Positions 23,203 through 28,542 of a DNA stretch of 64,000 bases are shown here, one piece after another. The notes below the pieces were generated by a model. It searched no databases. It saw only the letters and a program-made list of their open reading frames with translations, and was not told where the DNA came from. The DNA is taken from positions 1-64,000 of the forward strand of contig JAHJTC010000024.1 in the NCBI GenBank assembly GCA_018830105.1, in the 5' to 3' direction. The translations under genes were made by a program, and so were the position numbers. Each line of letters starts with the position of its first letter. The stretch's first letter is position 1. This stretch comes from Bacteroidota bacterium. Its GTDB lineage: Bacteria > Bacteroidota > Bacteroidia > Bacteroidales > F082.

Positions 23203-24288
23203 TTATGCTTTATCTTTCAACAAAACATCTATTGCACCCACACCAAACTTACTCATCGAAGCCATGCGGTTTGAAGTGCCTTCGTAATTGCTAAGCGCGT
23301 TTACGATGGCATTTTTAAGCACGCCATTGCCAACTCCGTGGATAAAGGTGACTTTGTCGTATTCATTTACCATAGCGCTGTCAAGACACTTATTAAAATA
23401 GTCGAGCTGATTATTAAGCATATCCCGACTACTCAAACCTGCAATATTCTCAACTAATTCGGCAATATGCAGATCCACAACAGCCTCACCTGCCGTAGTG
23501 CGGTGCTTGTCGATAATTTGTTTCTCCTTGACTACCACATTAGCTTTACCGCCTTCGGGTAGCAGACCATCTTTTTTAAACTGTCTTGTTTTTTGATCAT
23601 CAGTGCGTAAAGCCTGAATGAGTTGTAAATTAACAACCAGTGCTTTCTCTCCCAAAACAACCGATGAAGTATAACTGCCCTCCTTAAAAAAACGATTTGC
23701 TTTTATCTCATAAGGCGCATGAAGCGGCATAAGTGGCTGATTGGCATGCTCTTCTACAAGTAATGCCTGCACCAATCCGGACGACCAGCTATTCAAATCC
23801 TCACGAGAAATGGTTTCTATCACTACGCTGGAATAAGCCGAAACCTGACCAAAATCGGCATTCTCCAAGCCGTCTTCCAGTTTAATGCCAAAGCTGTATA
23901 GCAATTCGGTATTGCTGTGGTTGACCAGGGTAACATCGATCGGGCCGGTTAGCAACCACTGTTGATCATGCGGTACGAATGCCAAGTAAATCCCCTCGGG
24001 CTCAGGATTGCGTGCAAAGCGCCTCAAAGAACGCTTCCGGGCCGCATCAGCCTCCTCCTCCTTCTCTTGTTCCTGTCGCAGCACCTCACGTTGCGCCACC
24101 TCCATGGCTTGCTTTTTGCGCTCAGGAACAGCAGCAGGATCAAGCACCAAATCACTCACCATTACTGGTATCTCAAATCCGTCATCAATGGCAACCAATA
24201 CCAGTCGGCTATCAATGTTGCGCACAACAACACCCCCGCCCTTCTCATTCAAAAACTTTACCTTATCCCCAGCCTTATATTTTTCCAT
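23203..24288 (-). CDS. DUF2027 protein with Smr domain
   Basis: The start is set at ATG 24288 (MEKYKAGDKVKFLNEKGGG), since 22 extra residues upstream do not resemble the family. The 361-residue protein begins with a beta-barrel-like DUF2027 domain, then a charged helix-rich linker (REVLRQEQEKEEEADAARKR), a second beta domain, and a C-terminal Smr domain with VDLHIAELVENI and FIHGVGNGVLKNAI. Smr domains bind or nick nucleic acids in MutS2 and other proteins. Many Bacteroidota members of this family exist with unknown function. The protein appears cytosolic. Confidence 0.85.
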   Translation of the reverse strand: MEKYKAGDKVKFLNEKGGGVVVRNIDSRLVLVAIDDGFEIPVMVSDLVLDPAAVPERKKQAMEVAQREVLRQEQEKEEEADAARKRSLRRFARNPEPEGIYLAFVPHDQQWLLTGPIDVTLVNHSNTELLYSFGIKLEDGLENADFGQVSAYSSVVIETISREDLNSWSSGLVQALLVEEHANQPLMPLHAPYEIKANRFFKEGSYTSSVVLGEKALVVNLQLIQALRTDDQKTRQFKKDGLLPEGGKANVVVKEKQIIDKHRTTAGEAVVDLHIAELVENIAGLSSRDMLNNQLDYFNKCLDSAMVNEYDKVTFIHGVGNGVLKNAIVNALSNYEGTSNRMASMSKFGVGAIDVLLKDKA

Positions 24289-24436
24289 AAAATTCAATTT
24301 AATCTGCAAAAGTAAGCAATCTTCCCAAAGGATATCTTTTGCCTTGGCAGACAAGCAATAGAAAACACCGGGCCGTGAATTATTTGGAATACATTCTAAA
24401 TAATGCTCCAGGCTTTACAAATGTAGTCGGAAAACT

Positions 24437-24444
24437 TATCTTTG
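24437..24444 (+). promoter_or_regulatory. Promoter -7 element for the MbnP-MbnH pair
   Basis: TATCTTTG fits TAnnTTTG and ends 55 bases before the ATG of the MbnP gene. No strong TTTG -33 element is seen at 19-22 bases. Confidence 0.4.
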
Positions 24445-24499: not shown

Positions 24500-25372
24500 A
24501 TGCATAAAATCACCTGGGCTGGAATAATTTCTATACTCTTAATTATTAGTGCATGTCAGAAAACCGATGAACCGGCAACTTTTGGTCAAATAGCATTTGA
24601 GGTGCATCATGAAGTGGATGGAGAAAACCTAAACACAGATGCCCTAATCTATACTAATGGTGCCGGAAACCGCTATATGGTCACTGAAATTCATTGGTTT
24701 ATTTCAAATTTGACACTGATAGGTGCAGATGGCTCCCATACGGAGATGATGGAATCTTCTGAAGAAAATATCTTTTACATTGACACAGATATTGAAGAAA
24801 GCTGGCATATCAAAGCCAACAAACCGATTCCTGCCGGTCGATACAGCGGGCTGCGTTTTACCTTTGGGTTAGACAAAACGCTGAATAAATCGCATCGTTT
24901 TGTCAATCCACCGGAGTCTTTCATGTTTTGGCCCACTTACCTTGGAGGTGGCTATCATTATATGAAACTCAATGGTAAATGGATAAATACGCTTGGCAAA
25001 AACGAGCCTTTCAACTTCCATCTGGGTATTGGGCAGGAATACTATGAAGCCGGCAAAACCAACGAAGATTTTTATGTTTTTGGCCGAAGTGATAATTACG
25101 AGCATTGCGAAGGCTATTTGCCGCCTGAAAACCTAAGTCCGGTAATTGCTTTTATCCATAACAACTTCACAATAGAATTACCGCTTGATTTCGAGGTTAA
25201 GAGTGGCCAGACCACGCAACTGGATTTGGTGATGCAAGTTGAGAAATGGTTTAACAGCCGCGAGCTTTATGACCATGATCAATGGGGAGGTGCAATTATG
25301 CAACAGCAAGCCGCCATGGAAATGGGTTGCCGTAATGGCGTTGAAGCATTTCACTTAAGAAGAAGCAATTAG
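24500..25372 (+). CDS. MbnP-family lipoprotein (copper-site protein)
   Basis: The 290-residue protein carries a lipobox ISAC ending at Cys19. The rest fits the MbnP domain: IAFEVHHEVDGENL near residue 31, the segment around Trp144 (FMFWPTYLGG), YHYMKLNG with His153, and FNFHLGIG with His174. In characterised MbnP proteins a partner MauG-type enzyme (MbnH) oxidises a tryptophan to kynurenine, and His ligands plus the modified residue bind copper. His36, His37, His153 and His174 and Trp144 or Trp161 are candidates here, not assigned residues. The partner gene starts 3 bases downstream. No methanobactin biosynthesis gene is in the window. Confidence 0.78.
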   Translation: MHKITWAGIISILLIISACQKTDEPATFGQIAFEVHHEVDGENLNTDALIYTNGAGNRYMVTEIHWFISNLTLIGADGSHTEMMESSEENIFYIDTDIEESWHIKANKPIPAGRYSGLRFTFGLDKTLNKSHRFVNPPESFMFWPTYLGGGYHYMKLNGKWINTLGKNEPFNFHLGIGQEYYEAGKTNEDFYVFGRSDNYEHCEGYLPPENLSPVIAFIHNNFTIELPLDFEVKSGQTTQLDLVMQVEKWFNSRELYDHDQWGGAIMQQQAAMEMGCRNGVEAFHLRRSN

Positions 25373-25374
25373 TC

Positions 25375-26541
25375 ATGCGCTTGTTTTCTTTGATCCTAAA
25401 TTATTGTACCTTAAGCTTTATTGGGTTTTTGTTGCTCCTTTCCTCCTGCAAGGAGAATGACAATCCACCAGTATCTGATTTTAAACCAACACCTTACGAA
25501 ATAGAAATTCCGTATGCTTTTCCTACAAAGCTGAATATTCCGGCTGACAACCCAATGACTGTCGAAGGCGTAGCTTTGGGAAGATACCTCTTTTATGATG
25601 GCAGGCTGAGTGGCCGCACACATCCCGATTCATTGATGAGTTGCTCCAGCTGTCATATTCAACAAAATAATTTTGAGCCTGGCATTGACAACCCCCATTT
25701 CGTTGGTGGTTTTGTTCATGGATTAAACGGACAACAAACTCACCATGTTGTTCTTCCCTTGATAAATCTGGTTTGGAATAGCAGCGGATATGGCTGGAAC
25801 GGGAGCTTTTTCCCGGATAATGAAAATCCAAATTTCAGAAATATTGAAGATATTGTACGAGCCTCTGTTCTGGCTCCTGATGAAATGTATGGCGACACCA
25901 ATCGGGTAAAAGCTTTGTTTCAAAGCCTAGACGGCTATCCCGAGCTATTTTTTAAAGCATTTGGAAGCCAAACAATTACATTTAAAAACATTGAAAAAGC
26001 CATTGCACAGTTCGTGCGCAGTTTTGTTTCGGCTGATGCCAAAATAGATCGCTATTTAAAGGGAGAAGTTCAGCTATCACAAAGCGAATTGAATGGCTTT
26101 ATACTGTTCACCACCGAAGAAGGAGCCGATTGTTTTCACTGTCATGGTGGCTTTGGCAATCCGCTGTTTACCACACACCTCTTTTATAATAATGGCAAAG
26201 ACACAATTTTCGACGATCCGCTTGATCGCTTTGCTATTACTAACGACCCCATGCATAAAGGAGCCTATAAAGCGCCAACATTACGAAACATCAGCCTGAG
26301 CGGGCCGTATATGCACGATGGCAGGTTCAGCACGCTGGATGAGGTTATCAATTTCTATTCGCATCACGTTAAACTTTCCGAACAAGTTGATCCGCTAATG
26401 CACCATGTTTTGCGCGGCGGCGTGCAGCTGACACCCTCAGAAAAAGCAGATTTAAAAGCTTTTATCGCCACCCTGCACGACGAGAATTTTCTCACGAACC
26501 CGGCCTACAGCAAACCGGAAAAATTTCCGGACGAGGACTGA
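25375..26541 (+). CDS. Di-heme MauG/CcP-type oxidase lipoprotein (MbnH-like)
   Basis: The 388-residue protein has a lipobox LSSC ending at Cys25 and two c-type haem sites, CSSCH at residues 90-94 and CFHCH at 253-257. The segment APTLRNISLSGPYMHDGRF (around 300-318) places Tyr312 where MauG carries its tyrosine ligand, which separates this group from classical cytochrome c peroxidases. Its position right after the MbnP gene, with only 3 bases between, makes it the likely enzyme that oxidises MbnP. The CcsBA protein of this window could attach its haems. A plain hydrogen-peroxide peroxidase remains an alternative. Confidence 0.83.
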   Translation: MRLFSLILNYCTLSFIGFLLLLSSCKENDNPPVSDFKPTPYEIEIPYAFPTKLNIPADNPMTVEGVALGRYLFYDGRLSGRTHPDSLMSCSSCHIQQNNFEPGIDNPHFVGGFVHGLNGQQTHHVVLPLINLVWNSSGYGWNGSFFPDNENPNFRNIEDIVRASVLAPDEMYGDTNRVKALFQSLDGYPELFFKAFGSQTITFKNIEKAIAQFVRSFVSADAKIDRYLKGEVQLSQSELNGFILFTTEEGADCFHCHGGFGNPLFTTHLFYNNGKDTIFDDPLDRFAITNDPMHKGAYKAPTLRNISLSGPYMHDGRFSTLDEVINFYSHHVKLSEQVDPLMHHVLRGGVQLTPSEKADLKAFIATLHDENFLTNPAYSKPEKFPDED

Positions 26542-26574: not shown

Positions 26575-28542
26575 TCAATACAAATCAGGTTCTATATTGA
26601 TCTCGCGGGGATTAGTATCCGTCAATACTTTTAGTAATTCTTTGGTTTGCACAGGTTTGTAAAGCACATCATCCATTCCTTGCAGTTTGTATTCGTCGCT
26701 ACTTTTTTGCAATGCATCGGCAGTAAGCGCGATAATTCGGGGTTGTAATTCAGCCGGAACCCGCTGACGGATTAGTTTTGTGGCCTCTAAACCATTCATC
26801 ACTGGCATTTGAATATCCATCAAAACGAGATCATAAGTTTTTATCAGGATGGATTCCAGTGCTTGCTTTCCGTTTTCAACCAATCTGGGGCTGTAGCCAT
26901 AGCGGCTAAGAACGCCTAAAATGATTTTCTGATTGATGGCATTATCTTCAGCAACAAGTATTTCGATTGGGTGATATTCTGCCATATGTTCATCTGCCTG
27001 AGGAAGATGATCCCGGCGATTTAAAATATCTGCCTTGCTGTTAAGCACTGCATCTATGGTTTCAAAAAGCTCATCAACGAAAATCGGCTGGAGTAAAATT
27101 ACCGTATCTTTCCTGATAACAATCAGTTGATCATTCACATTTTCACGATCTTTAACCAAAATGTGAGCAACTTCATGCTTGCTGCGAACGCTGTCAATGA
27201 GTTTCAGGTCGAGTTTTAAGTTCGATCTGAGATCAGTAATCAACAAGTCGTACGCTTCCAGTTCATTGCCAAACACAGGCATATCCTGTTCTTCGCGCTG
27301 TATTTTCAACGCTGCTCCCCAGAAAGTACAATATGCTTTCAACAGTTCGTCATGCAATTGGTTGTGCGTTATATAAAGAATTTTCTTGTCCTTAAACGCA
27401 TTTAATTGCCTTGAAACCGGCTGTTTTTCAACCTGAATAAGTGGCAAAATCACCGTGAAAGTTGTTCCCTTCTCAAGCACCGACTCTACTTTAATCTGTC
27501 CTTTCATGCGCTTTACAAGGTGATCGCAGATCGACAAGCCAAGGCCAACGCCTTTTATCTGCGCTGCATCGTGCTCTTCACCCTTCACATAAGGTTTAAA
27601 AAGCTGTGGAATCACTTCTTCTTTTATGCCTTGCCCTGTATCTTCTACTTCAAAATGTATAACAGCGCCCTGCTCTGTTTCATCCTGAAAAACATACACT
27701 TTAACAAATCCGGTATCGGTAAATTTGATGGCATTTTCCACCAGGTTCATCATCACCTGTCGCAGGCGGAGATCGTCACCGGTAATTATTTTTGGGAGCT
27801 CCGGGCTGATATGGAGCAGCAGATTCAGCTTCTTTTCAAGGGCTTGTGGCAGTACCGATTCTATCACCTCCTGCATGCTTTGATGCAAAGAAAAAGGCCG
27901 GGCATGAATCTTAACTTTTCCCGATTCAATTTTTGAGAAATCGAGCAAATCATTGAACAGGCTAACAAGCATATTCCCACTTTCTTTGATCAGCTGCAGA
28001 TAATAACGCTGTTTGCTGTTTAATTCCGAATCCCAAAGCATCTCTGTCATACCTATTACAGCATTCATCGGCGTTCTGATTTCATGACTCATTCTGGCCA
28101 ACAAACGGCTACTATATTCTCGTGCCTCCGCTTCCTTATCGTGATAATTGAGCAGCTCAATCCTTAAATTTCTCCGCGTAACAGCAGTCAGTACACATTT
28201 CCGCAAACTATATGCATCCAACTTCTCTTTTACGAAATAATCCTGCACTCCCTTGCTTATAAAAGCAATTGCTTTGCTTTCCTGGTTTTTATCACAGGAG
28301 AGAATGATAGCAATTTTTGGAAAACGATCAATGAGCTGCAAAATAAAATCTTCCTTACCCCAATTTGCCTCACAAGCAGATAAAATCACAACATCCGGCA
28401 ACTGCTCCGAAAGCTGTTGAATAATATCACCCGGCAGGTTTGGCGTTAATTGCTCGTAAGCAATATCCTCGTTGGCAGCATTTAGCTTTTTGTAATATTC
28501 TAAATCGTGAGGATTAGCAGAAACAGAAAGTACATGTATCAT
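26575..28542 (-). CDS. Soluble hybrid histidine kinase with degenerate receivers
   Basis: The 655-residue protein has no membrane segment. Order: an N-terminal receiver-like domain (1-125), HisKA with phospho-acceptor His153 in MSHEIRTP, HATPase_c (NLVENAIKF and GLGLSICDHL), a second receiver-like domain (~390-505), and a normal C-terminal receiver with Asp576 in LMDIQMP. In the first receiver the phosphorylatable Asp position is Ser55 (VVILSACE) and the usual DD pocket reads SAN. In the second, ITDLRS keeps an Asp but the conserved Lys of KP is Gln (LLQP). So only the last receiver looks competent. No output or partner regulator is adjacent. Confidence 0.87.
   Translation of the reverse strand: MIHVLSVSANPHDLEYYKKLNAANEDIAYEQLTPNLPGDIIQQLSEQLPDVVILSACEANWGKEDFILQLIDRFPKIAIILSCDKNQESKAIAFISKGVQDYFVKEKLDAYSLRKCVLTAVTRRNLRIELLNYHDKEAEAREYSSRLLARMSHEIRTPMNAVIGMTEMLWDSELNSKQRYYLQLIKESGNMLVSLFNDLLDFSKIESGKVKIHARPFSLHQSMQEVIESVLPQALEKKLNLLLHISPELPKIITGDDLRLRQVMMNLVENAIKFTDTGFVKVYVFQDETEQGAVIHFEVEDTGQGIKEEVIPQLFKPYVKGEEHDAAQIKGVGLGLSICDHLVKRMKGQIKVESVLEKGTTFTVILPLIQVEKQPVSRQLNAFKDKKILYITHNQLHDELLKAYCTFWGAALKIQREEQDMPVFGNELEAYDLLITDLRSNLKLDLKLIDSVRSKHEVAHILVKDRENVNDQLIVIRKDTVILLQPIFVDELFETIDAVLNSKADILNRRDHLPQADEHMAEYHPIEILVAEDNAINQKIILGVLSRYGYSPRLVENGKQALESILIKTYDLVLMDIQMPVMNGLEATKLIRQRVPAELQPRIIALTADALQKSSDEYKLQGMDDVLYKPVQTKELLKVLTDTNPREINIEPDLY

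Follow-up and report, generated by a model that had tools for sequence, protein, structure and literature searches.

An MbnP/MbnH-like lipoprotein pair of a Bacteroidales genome as a probable copper-acquisition module of the cell envelope

Two adjoining lipoprotein genes, located in the window (the whole stretch of 64,000 nucleotides that was analysed), probably form an envelope copper-acquisition module in which an MbnP-like protein carries a kynurenine copper site made by an MbnH-like enzyme. Judged by sequence, the pair is a variant of the known methanotroph system; one gene most likely encodes a protein that holds copper, and the other the haem enzyme by which this protein's copper site is made. 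This reading was based on the gene content, the family assignment by domain, fold and tree, the conserved residues, the linkage of the genes, and the presence in the genome of copper enzymes and a copper receptor. From these we infer that kynurenine is formed, that MbnP binds copper, and that it is displayed on the surface and passes its copper to a receptor. To our knowledge, kynurenine copper sites have been proven only in methanotrophs. In the clade of the window, the Trp that would be modified is kept while the second motif Trp is missing, and the wider family is common, so this clade would show what such a site really needs.

Gene layout and family assignment of the two lipoproteins

The mbnP-like gene (24500..25372, plus strand) encodes a lipoprotein of 290 aa with the lipid anchor at Cys19 and a PF20243 domain, and the mbnH-like gene (25375..26541, plus strand) encodes a di-haem c-type lipoprotein of 388 aa anchored at Cys25. 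Both open reading frames lay where the first-pass annotation had placed them, on the same strand, while its gap of 3 bases was corrected to 2, as the TAG of mbnP ends at 25372 and the ATG of mbnH starts at 25375. In five relatives of the same genus (L004-L008), the coordinates showed that the mbnH start overlaps the mbnP stop. The pair stands alone between a divergent upstream gene for a DUF2027 plus Smr protein (23203-24294) and a convergent downstream gene for a histidine kinase with receiver (26575-28542). The sequence TATCTTTG (24437..24444, plus strand), 55 bases before the mbnP start and with TTTACA 17 bases upstream of it, was noted as a possible Bacteroidota -7 promoter element (TAnnTTTG), but it is a weak candidate because the pattern is common in the region.

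The source genome is 3.9 Mb in size and 94% complete, and the other members of its genus are uncultured Bacteroidales. A search with PF05114 (MbnB) gave no match across this 94% complete genome, in line with the earlier statement that methanobactin genes are absent. The position of the pair outside a methanobactin operon is already known and not unusual, because the pair was reported to be conserved "far beyond" methanobactin producers (PMC3621798). The special link to CcsBA that had been proposed for haem supply was not upheld, CcsBA being a general cytochrome c assembly gene outside this operon.

The lipoboxes read from the two proteins (ISAC19 in MbnP, LSSC25 in MbnH) agreed with the earlier claim that both partners are lipoproteins. 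In MbnP, the codons of Cys19-Glu24 (24554..24571, plus strand) specify CQKTDE, the lipid anchor plus a stretch like the surface-export signal of Bacteroidota, of which the Capnocytophaga consensus is QKDDE (PMC5080379). From this resemblance, MbnP may be exported to the cell surface. Among the relatives with a recognisable lipobox, at least two acidic residues at +2 to +7 were counted in 41 of 69, without a control set.

The MbnP identity was confirmed by the Pfam profile search, in which PF20243 scored 86.1 bits (cut-off 27), and by the fold; the score on TIGR04052 (MbnP_like_WxW equivalog) was 29.5 bits, below its cut-off of 140. When the solved structures were searched with the window MbnP sequence or its profile, no MbnP was matched, and it was the fold search and the profile comparison that found the solved MbnP. 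The AlphaFold2 model (mean pLDDT 82.8, with the Trp144 loop at low confidence) had a single significant fold match, 7l6g (Foldseek E 5.6e-9, Z 16.3 over 222 residues). The window family also matched the canonical MbnPs, those of methanobactin operons included, in a profile-profile comparison (E 7.7e-12). These yardstick MbnPs were those of methanobactin operons carried by Methylocystis plasmids, together with MbnPs of three further plasmids, and one of them matched 7l6g by sequence.

The enzyme scored 112.7 bits on PF03150 in the Pfam search and 200.6 bits on TIGR04039 ("MbnH family"), its best NCBIfam match although below the cut-off of 362.85. Two CxxCH haem motifs were present, one at residues 90-94 and one at 253-257. 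Among solved structures, 6e1c, entitled "a MauG-like protein associated with microbial copper homeostasis", was the closest to the enzyme in both sequence and fold; the AlphaFold2 model of the enzyme was weak (mean pLDDT 63.7), so the fold match served as support only. In a tree of 80 sequences, the window enzyme was placed among the Bacteroidota enzymes that adjoin MbnP, with the canonical MbnHs in the same part and the plain peroxidases and MauG elsewhere. The identification as a di-haem MbnH, made earlier from the sequence, was thus sustained by domain, haem motifs and tree, and the enzyme did not fall among the plain cytochrome c peroxidases.

The MauG-type haem ligand had been assigned to Tyr312. 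This residue was rejected, because column 312 is Tyr in every group, including 12/12 plain peroxidases, and is part of a PYxHxG motif shared with them. The equivalent of MauG Tyr294 is Tyr328 (codon 26356..26358, plus strand), as obtained from two alignments (query 332 paired with chain 298; P0009 316 paired with chain 305, with Tyr at 305). Column 328 is Tyr in the window MbnH, in all close and canonical MbnHs and in MauG, whereas it is Met, the ligand of the high-potential haem, in 12/12 plain peroxidases. These results bear on the proposal that the di-haem protein is mainly an envelope-protecting peroxidase and that MbnP binds copper or another metal without Trp modification. The enzyme does belong to the same superfamily as the bacterial cytochrome c peroxidases, some MbnH genes lie apart from MbnP, and MbnPs that lack the Trp exist; but Tyr replaces the Met ligand, the enzyme lies on a separate branch, its co-occurrence with MbnP is near-perfect (see below), and in many relatives a plain peroxidase has a gene of its own next to that of MbnH. 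A peroxidase as the main function is therefore considered quite improbable.

Motif of the MbnP-like protein and candidate copper ligands

In the profile-profile alignment, M142-F-W144 (codons 24923..24931, plus strand) was paired with M-x-W, with which the canonical MxWxW motif begins, and H174 was paired with the HLGS His. Trp144 is thereby aligned with the first Trp of the methanotroph motif. Among 89 Bacteroidales MbnPs, sixteen residues never varied: N53, N57, G123, N129, P138, M142, W144, P145, G149, G150, Y152, H153, H174, G176, W250 and M267. In a wider set, the first Trp was found in 47 of 51 rows and the His of HxG in 49 of 51. Among the ligands listed as candidates by the first-pass annotation, Trp144, His153 and His174 were invariant (n=89), His37 was kept in >90% of 29 close relatives, and Trp161 and His36 were not conserved. 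The candidate modified Trp and a candidate His ligand were retained, with W144 and H174 aligned to canonical MbnP.

The second Trp of WxW, the loss of which had gone unnoticed earlier, is absent across the window clade, and the WxW motif of TIGR04052 was not found. Most MbnPs across the phylum have the full MxWxW (e.g. MYWSWNSGY), while the loop of the window clade reads MFWPxxLGGGYHY and is two residues longer; its WPxxLGGGYHY part is clade-specific and nearly invariant. By sequence, the window MbnP is a variant form of the family, with the second Trp gone and, for both families of the pair, scores below the NCBI cut-offs, and a transfer of function across this distance crosses a real sequence change for these two reasons.

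Manesis et al. in 2021 reportedly found that the first Trp of WxW is converted to kynurenine in the MbnP of strain OB3b, and the copper there is said to be held by His, Met and solvent beside the kynurenine. The residue set conserved in the window clade is compatible with this site. His174 (HLG), Met142 or Met267, and His153 are the candidate copper ligands; Met267 was aligned with the CM Met of methanotroph MbnP in one alignment and not in another.

The rebuilt loop could also mean that MbnH makes a different modification (Trp144 might, e.g., be hydroxylated or cross-linked, or the invariant Tyr152 altered), since the second Trp is gone and WPxxLGGGYHY has taken its place. MbnH also stays beside related GGGYH-type MbnPs that lack the Trp, at L152:3916-4681 and L155:3919-4690, where NVP replaces FWP and the adjoining MbnH keeps Trp141 and Tyr328 intact. 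If MbnH served only for kynurenine, these pairs should not exist; their MbnPs may be decaying, or MbnH may have another role there. Against a different modification, the first Trp, reportedly the oxidised one in the solved MbnP, is kept without exception in the clade, and the window MbnH has the same Tyr328 and Trp141 as the canonical MbnHs. Such a modification is considered unlikely, and oxidation of Trp144 to kynurenine is preferred.

Pairing across relatives and the OprC-like copper receptor

The pairing and gene order proposed from the window alone were recovered widely in Bacteroidota. MbnH lay directly behind MbnP at 58 of the 80 best-scoring loci in species genomes, a set that leans to close relatives, and an MbnH-like gene was near MbnP in 39 of 40 regions from other parts of the phylum. 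Among 41 relatives, 27 had MbnP, and a close MbnH was found in 26 of these 27 and in 0 of the 14 without MbnP (Fisher p 4e-10, with genomes that share descent and are not independent). The single MbnP genome without a close MbnH was 77% complete. Lack of the enzyme where MbnP has no neighbouring MbnH was excluded, because MbnH was encoded elsewhere in 18/18 tested genomes with such loci. Of the 198 genomes of the phylum that were sampled, 51 encoded a PF20243 protein, and no relative was found among viral contigs. Together with the identities and lipid anchors, the pairing is the part of the earlier interpretation that stood, in contrast to Tyr312, Trp161, His36 and the CcsBA link.

Several other arrangements were observed. 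At seven loci with MbnP and without a neighbouring MbnH (L062, L078, L080, L085, L086, L097, L106), six of the seven checked read MGWP, not MFWP, and a putative PAP2-type phosphatase-like gene, named from its sequence, directly followed MbnP in 7/7. The window genus has a second MbnP paralogue with an MEWP motif and without an adjoining MbnH (L180:10602-11370, L184:8829-9597), and in its genomes a second MbnH, 44-46% identical, is on another contig (L181, L185). In addition, plasmid records name di-haem MbnHs "methanobactin export MATE transporter MbnM" (L033:5932-7116, L035:5917-7077, L036:4734-6005, L037:4899-6050), which looks like an annotation error because the proteins are two-haem c-type.

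A second association, not mentioned in the first-pass annotation, is with an OprC-like receptor. In 30 of the 80 related loci, a TonB receptor gene directly preceded MbnP on the same strand, in most cases with the gene of a small lipoprotein in between, and 23 of these 30 also had MbnH directly behind MbnP. For the receptor P0010, OprC was the only solved relative at the threshold of E 1e-5 (E 4e-31); its score on the TonB-copper family TIGR01778 was 221.6, below the cut-off of 472.45. The copper of OprC is held by Cys143, Met147, His323 and Met325 (PMC8610252), and CPNRM and HxM were found in 24/24 and 25/25 of the receptors covering those regions.

The operon of OprC-like receptor, lipoprotein P0011 of about 120 aa, MbnP and MbnH was seen at L087:2256-6945 and 29 further loci among L059-L119; P0011 had no Pfam or NCBIfam match, and some operon copies are without MbnH. 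In other Bacteroidota (L144, L145, L146, L151), MbnP was near a TonB receptor of the same broad type, for which a different ligand is possible because the CPNRM motif is lacking. Operons headed by cruR homologues with MbnPH-like genes and OprC-type receptors were reported mainly in Proteobacteria (PMC9426467). The Bacteroidales four-gene operon with a CxxxM-HxM receptor and the WPxxLGGGYHY loop without the second Trp were not found in a partial literature search and may be new.

Among the 20 loci closest to the window, none had a TonB receptor gene upstream of MbnP. A receptor hidden in the flanks of the window pair was ruled out, as the upstream gene is the divergent DUF2027/Smr gene and the only close receptor of this type is on another contig. 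That receptor, OprC/NosA-like with CPNRM and HxM, is encoded in the same genome as part of a nos (nitrous-oxide reductase) cluster (L197:4767-16959, contig C29). Besides it, the cluster encodes two NosZ-like proteins, of which one scored above the cut-off and the other below it, a small cytochrome c, NosD and a second TonB receptor. An OprC-like receptor was present in 7/7 genomes searched in the genus, and the own genome also encodes aa3 (CtaD) and cbb3 (CcoNO) oxidases.

The isolated position of the pair gives some room to the view that the modified copper site is built for detoxification or storage of envelope copper, not for acquisition: in the clade of the window the pair has no receptor next to it, and copper could be sequestered by a tightly binding Cu(I) site. 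However, in related genomes the pair runs in the same direction as the gene of an OprC-like importer in which the copper-binding motif is retained, and the methanotroph counterparts CorA and MopE are made under copper limitation (PMC3912023, PMC3423442). Detoxification or storage is accordingly held to be rather unlikely, and acquisition remains the preferred reading.

Proposed copper route and comparison with known systems

The pair is proposed to act as a two-gene copper module on the cell envelope. With peroxide or another oxidant, MbnH would oxidise Trp144 of MbnP, the product being most likely kynurenine. One Cu(I) would then be bound by MbnP through His174, a methionine (Met142 or Met267) and the oxidised Trp144, with a possible contribution from His153, which is specific to the clade. 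Once loaded, MbnP would be located at the outer membrane, perhaps facing outwards, and would pass its copper on for import. An OprC-type TonB receptor is a plausible recipient; in relatives, the gene of such a receptor directly precedes that of MbnP. The users of this copper would be the nitrous-oxide reductase and the aa3 and cbb3 oxidases of the cell. Nitrous-oxide reduction depends on copper, and the receptor link gives a testable route of ionic-copper uptake in Bacteroidota, including N2O reducers. As a tentative extension, the OprC-like receptor, the small lipoprotein and MbnP with its enzyme-made Cu(I) site, based on kynurenine or a related product, might work as a surface uptake module like SusC/SusD, with the window form separated from its receptor; if true, it would be the Bacteroidales copper counterpart of SusC/SusD pairs.

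Several known systems resemble parts of this arrangement. The receptor of the relatives and that of the own genome keep the CxxxM-HxM copper site of the OprC/NosA receptors (PMC8610252), although in the window the receptor is not beside the pair and operons of OprC-type receptors with MbnPH-like genes have been reported mainly in Proteobacteria (PMC9426467). In the methanotroph systems MopE/SACCP and CorA/CorB, a di-haem partner adjoins a copper protein with a Trp converted to kynurenine beside two His (PMC3912023). The MopE/CorA site is Kyn-x-His plus a distant His, whereas the window MbnP has W-P-T and no His at +2, and the solved MopE/CorA structures gave no match to the window MbnP by sequence. 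In the system of MauG and methylamine dehydrogenase, the enzyme is likewise di-haem, has a Tyr haem ligand and oxidises Trp residues of its partner protein; the window MbnH differs in its separate tree branch and its partner, and no TTQ cofactor is expected.

The closest comparison is with MbnP/MbnH of Methylosinus trichosporium OB3b (PDB 7l6g, 6e1c). Compared to OB3b, the window has no methanobactin genes, both of its proteins are lipoproteins, and its MbnP is without the second Trp of WxW, has the WPxxLGGGYHY loop longer by two residues, and is only about 15% identical over the aligned fold. Yet the two pairs share the same two families, the gene order and the fold (Z 16.3), together with the first motif Trp, the HLG His and the MauG-type Tyr.
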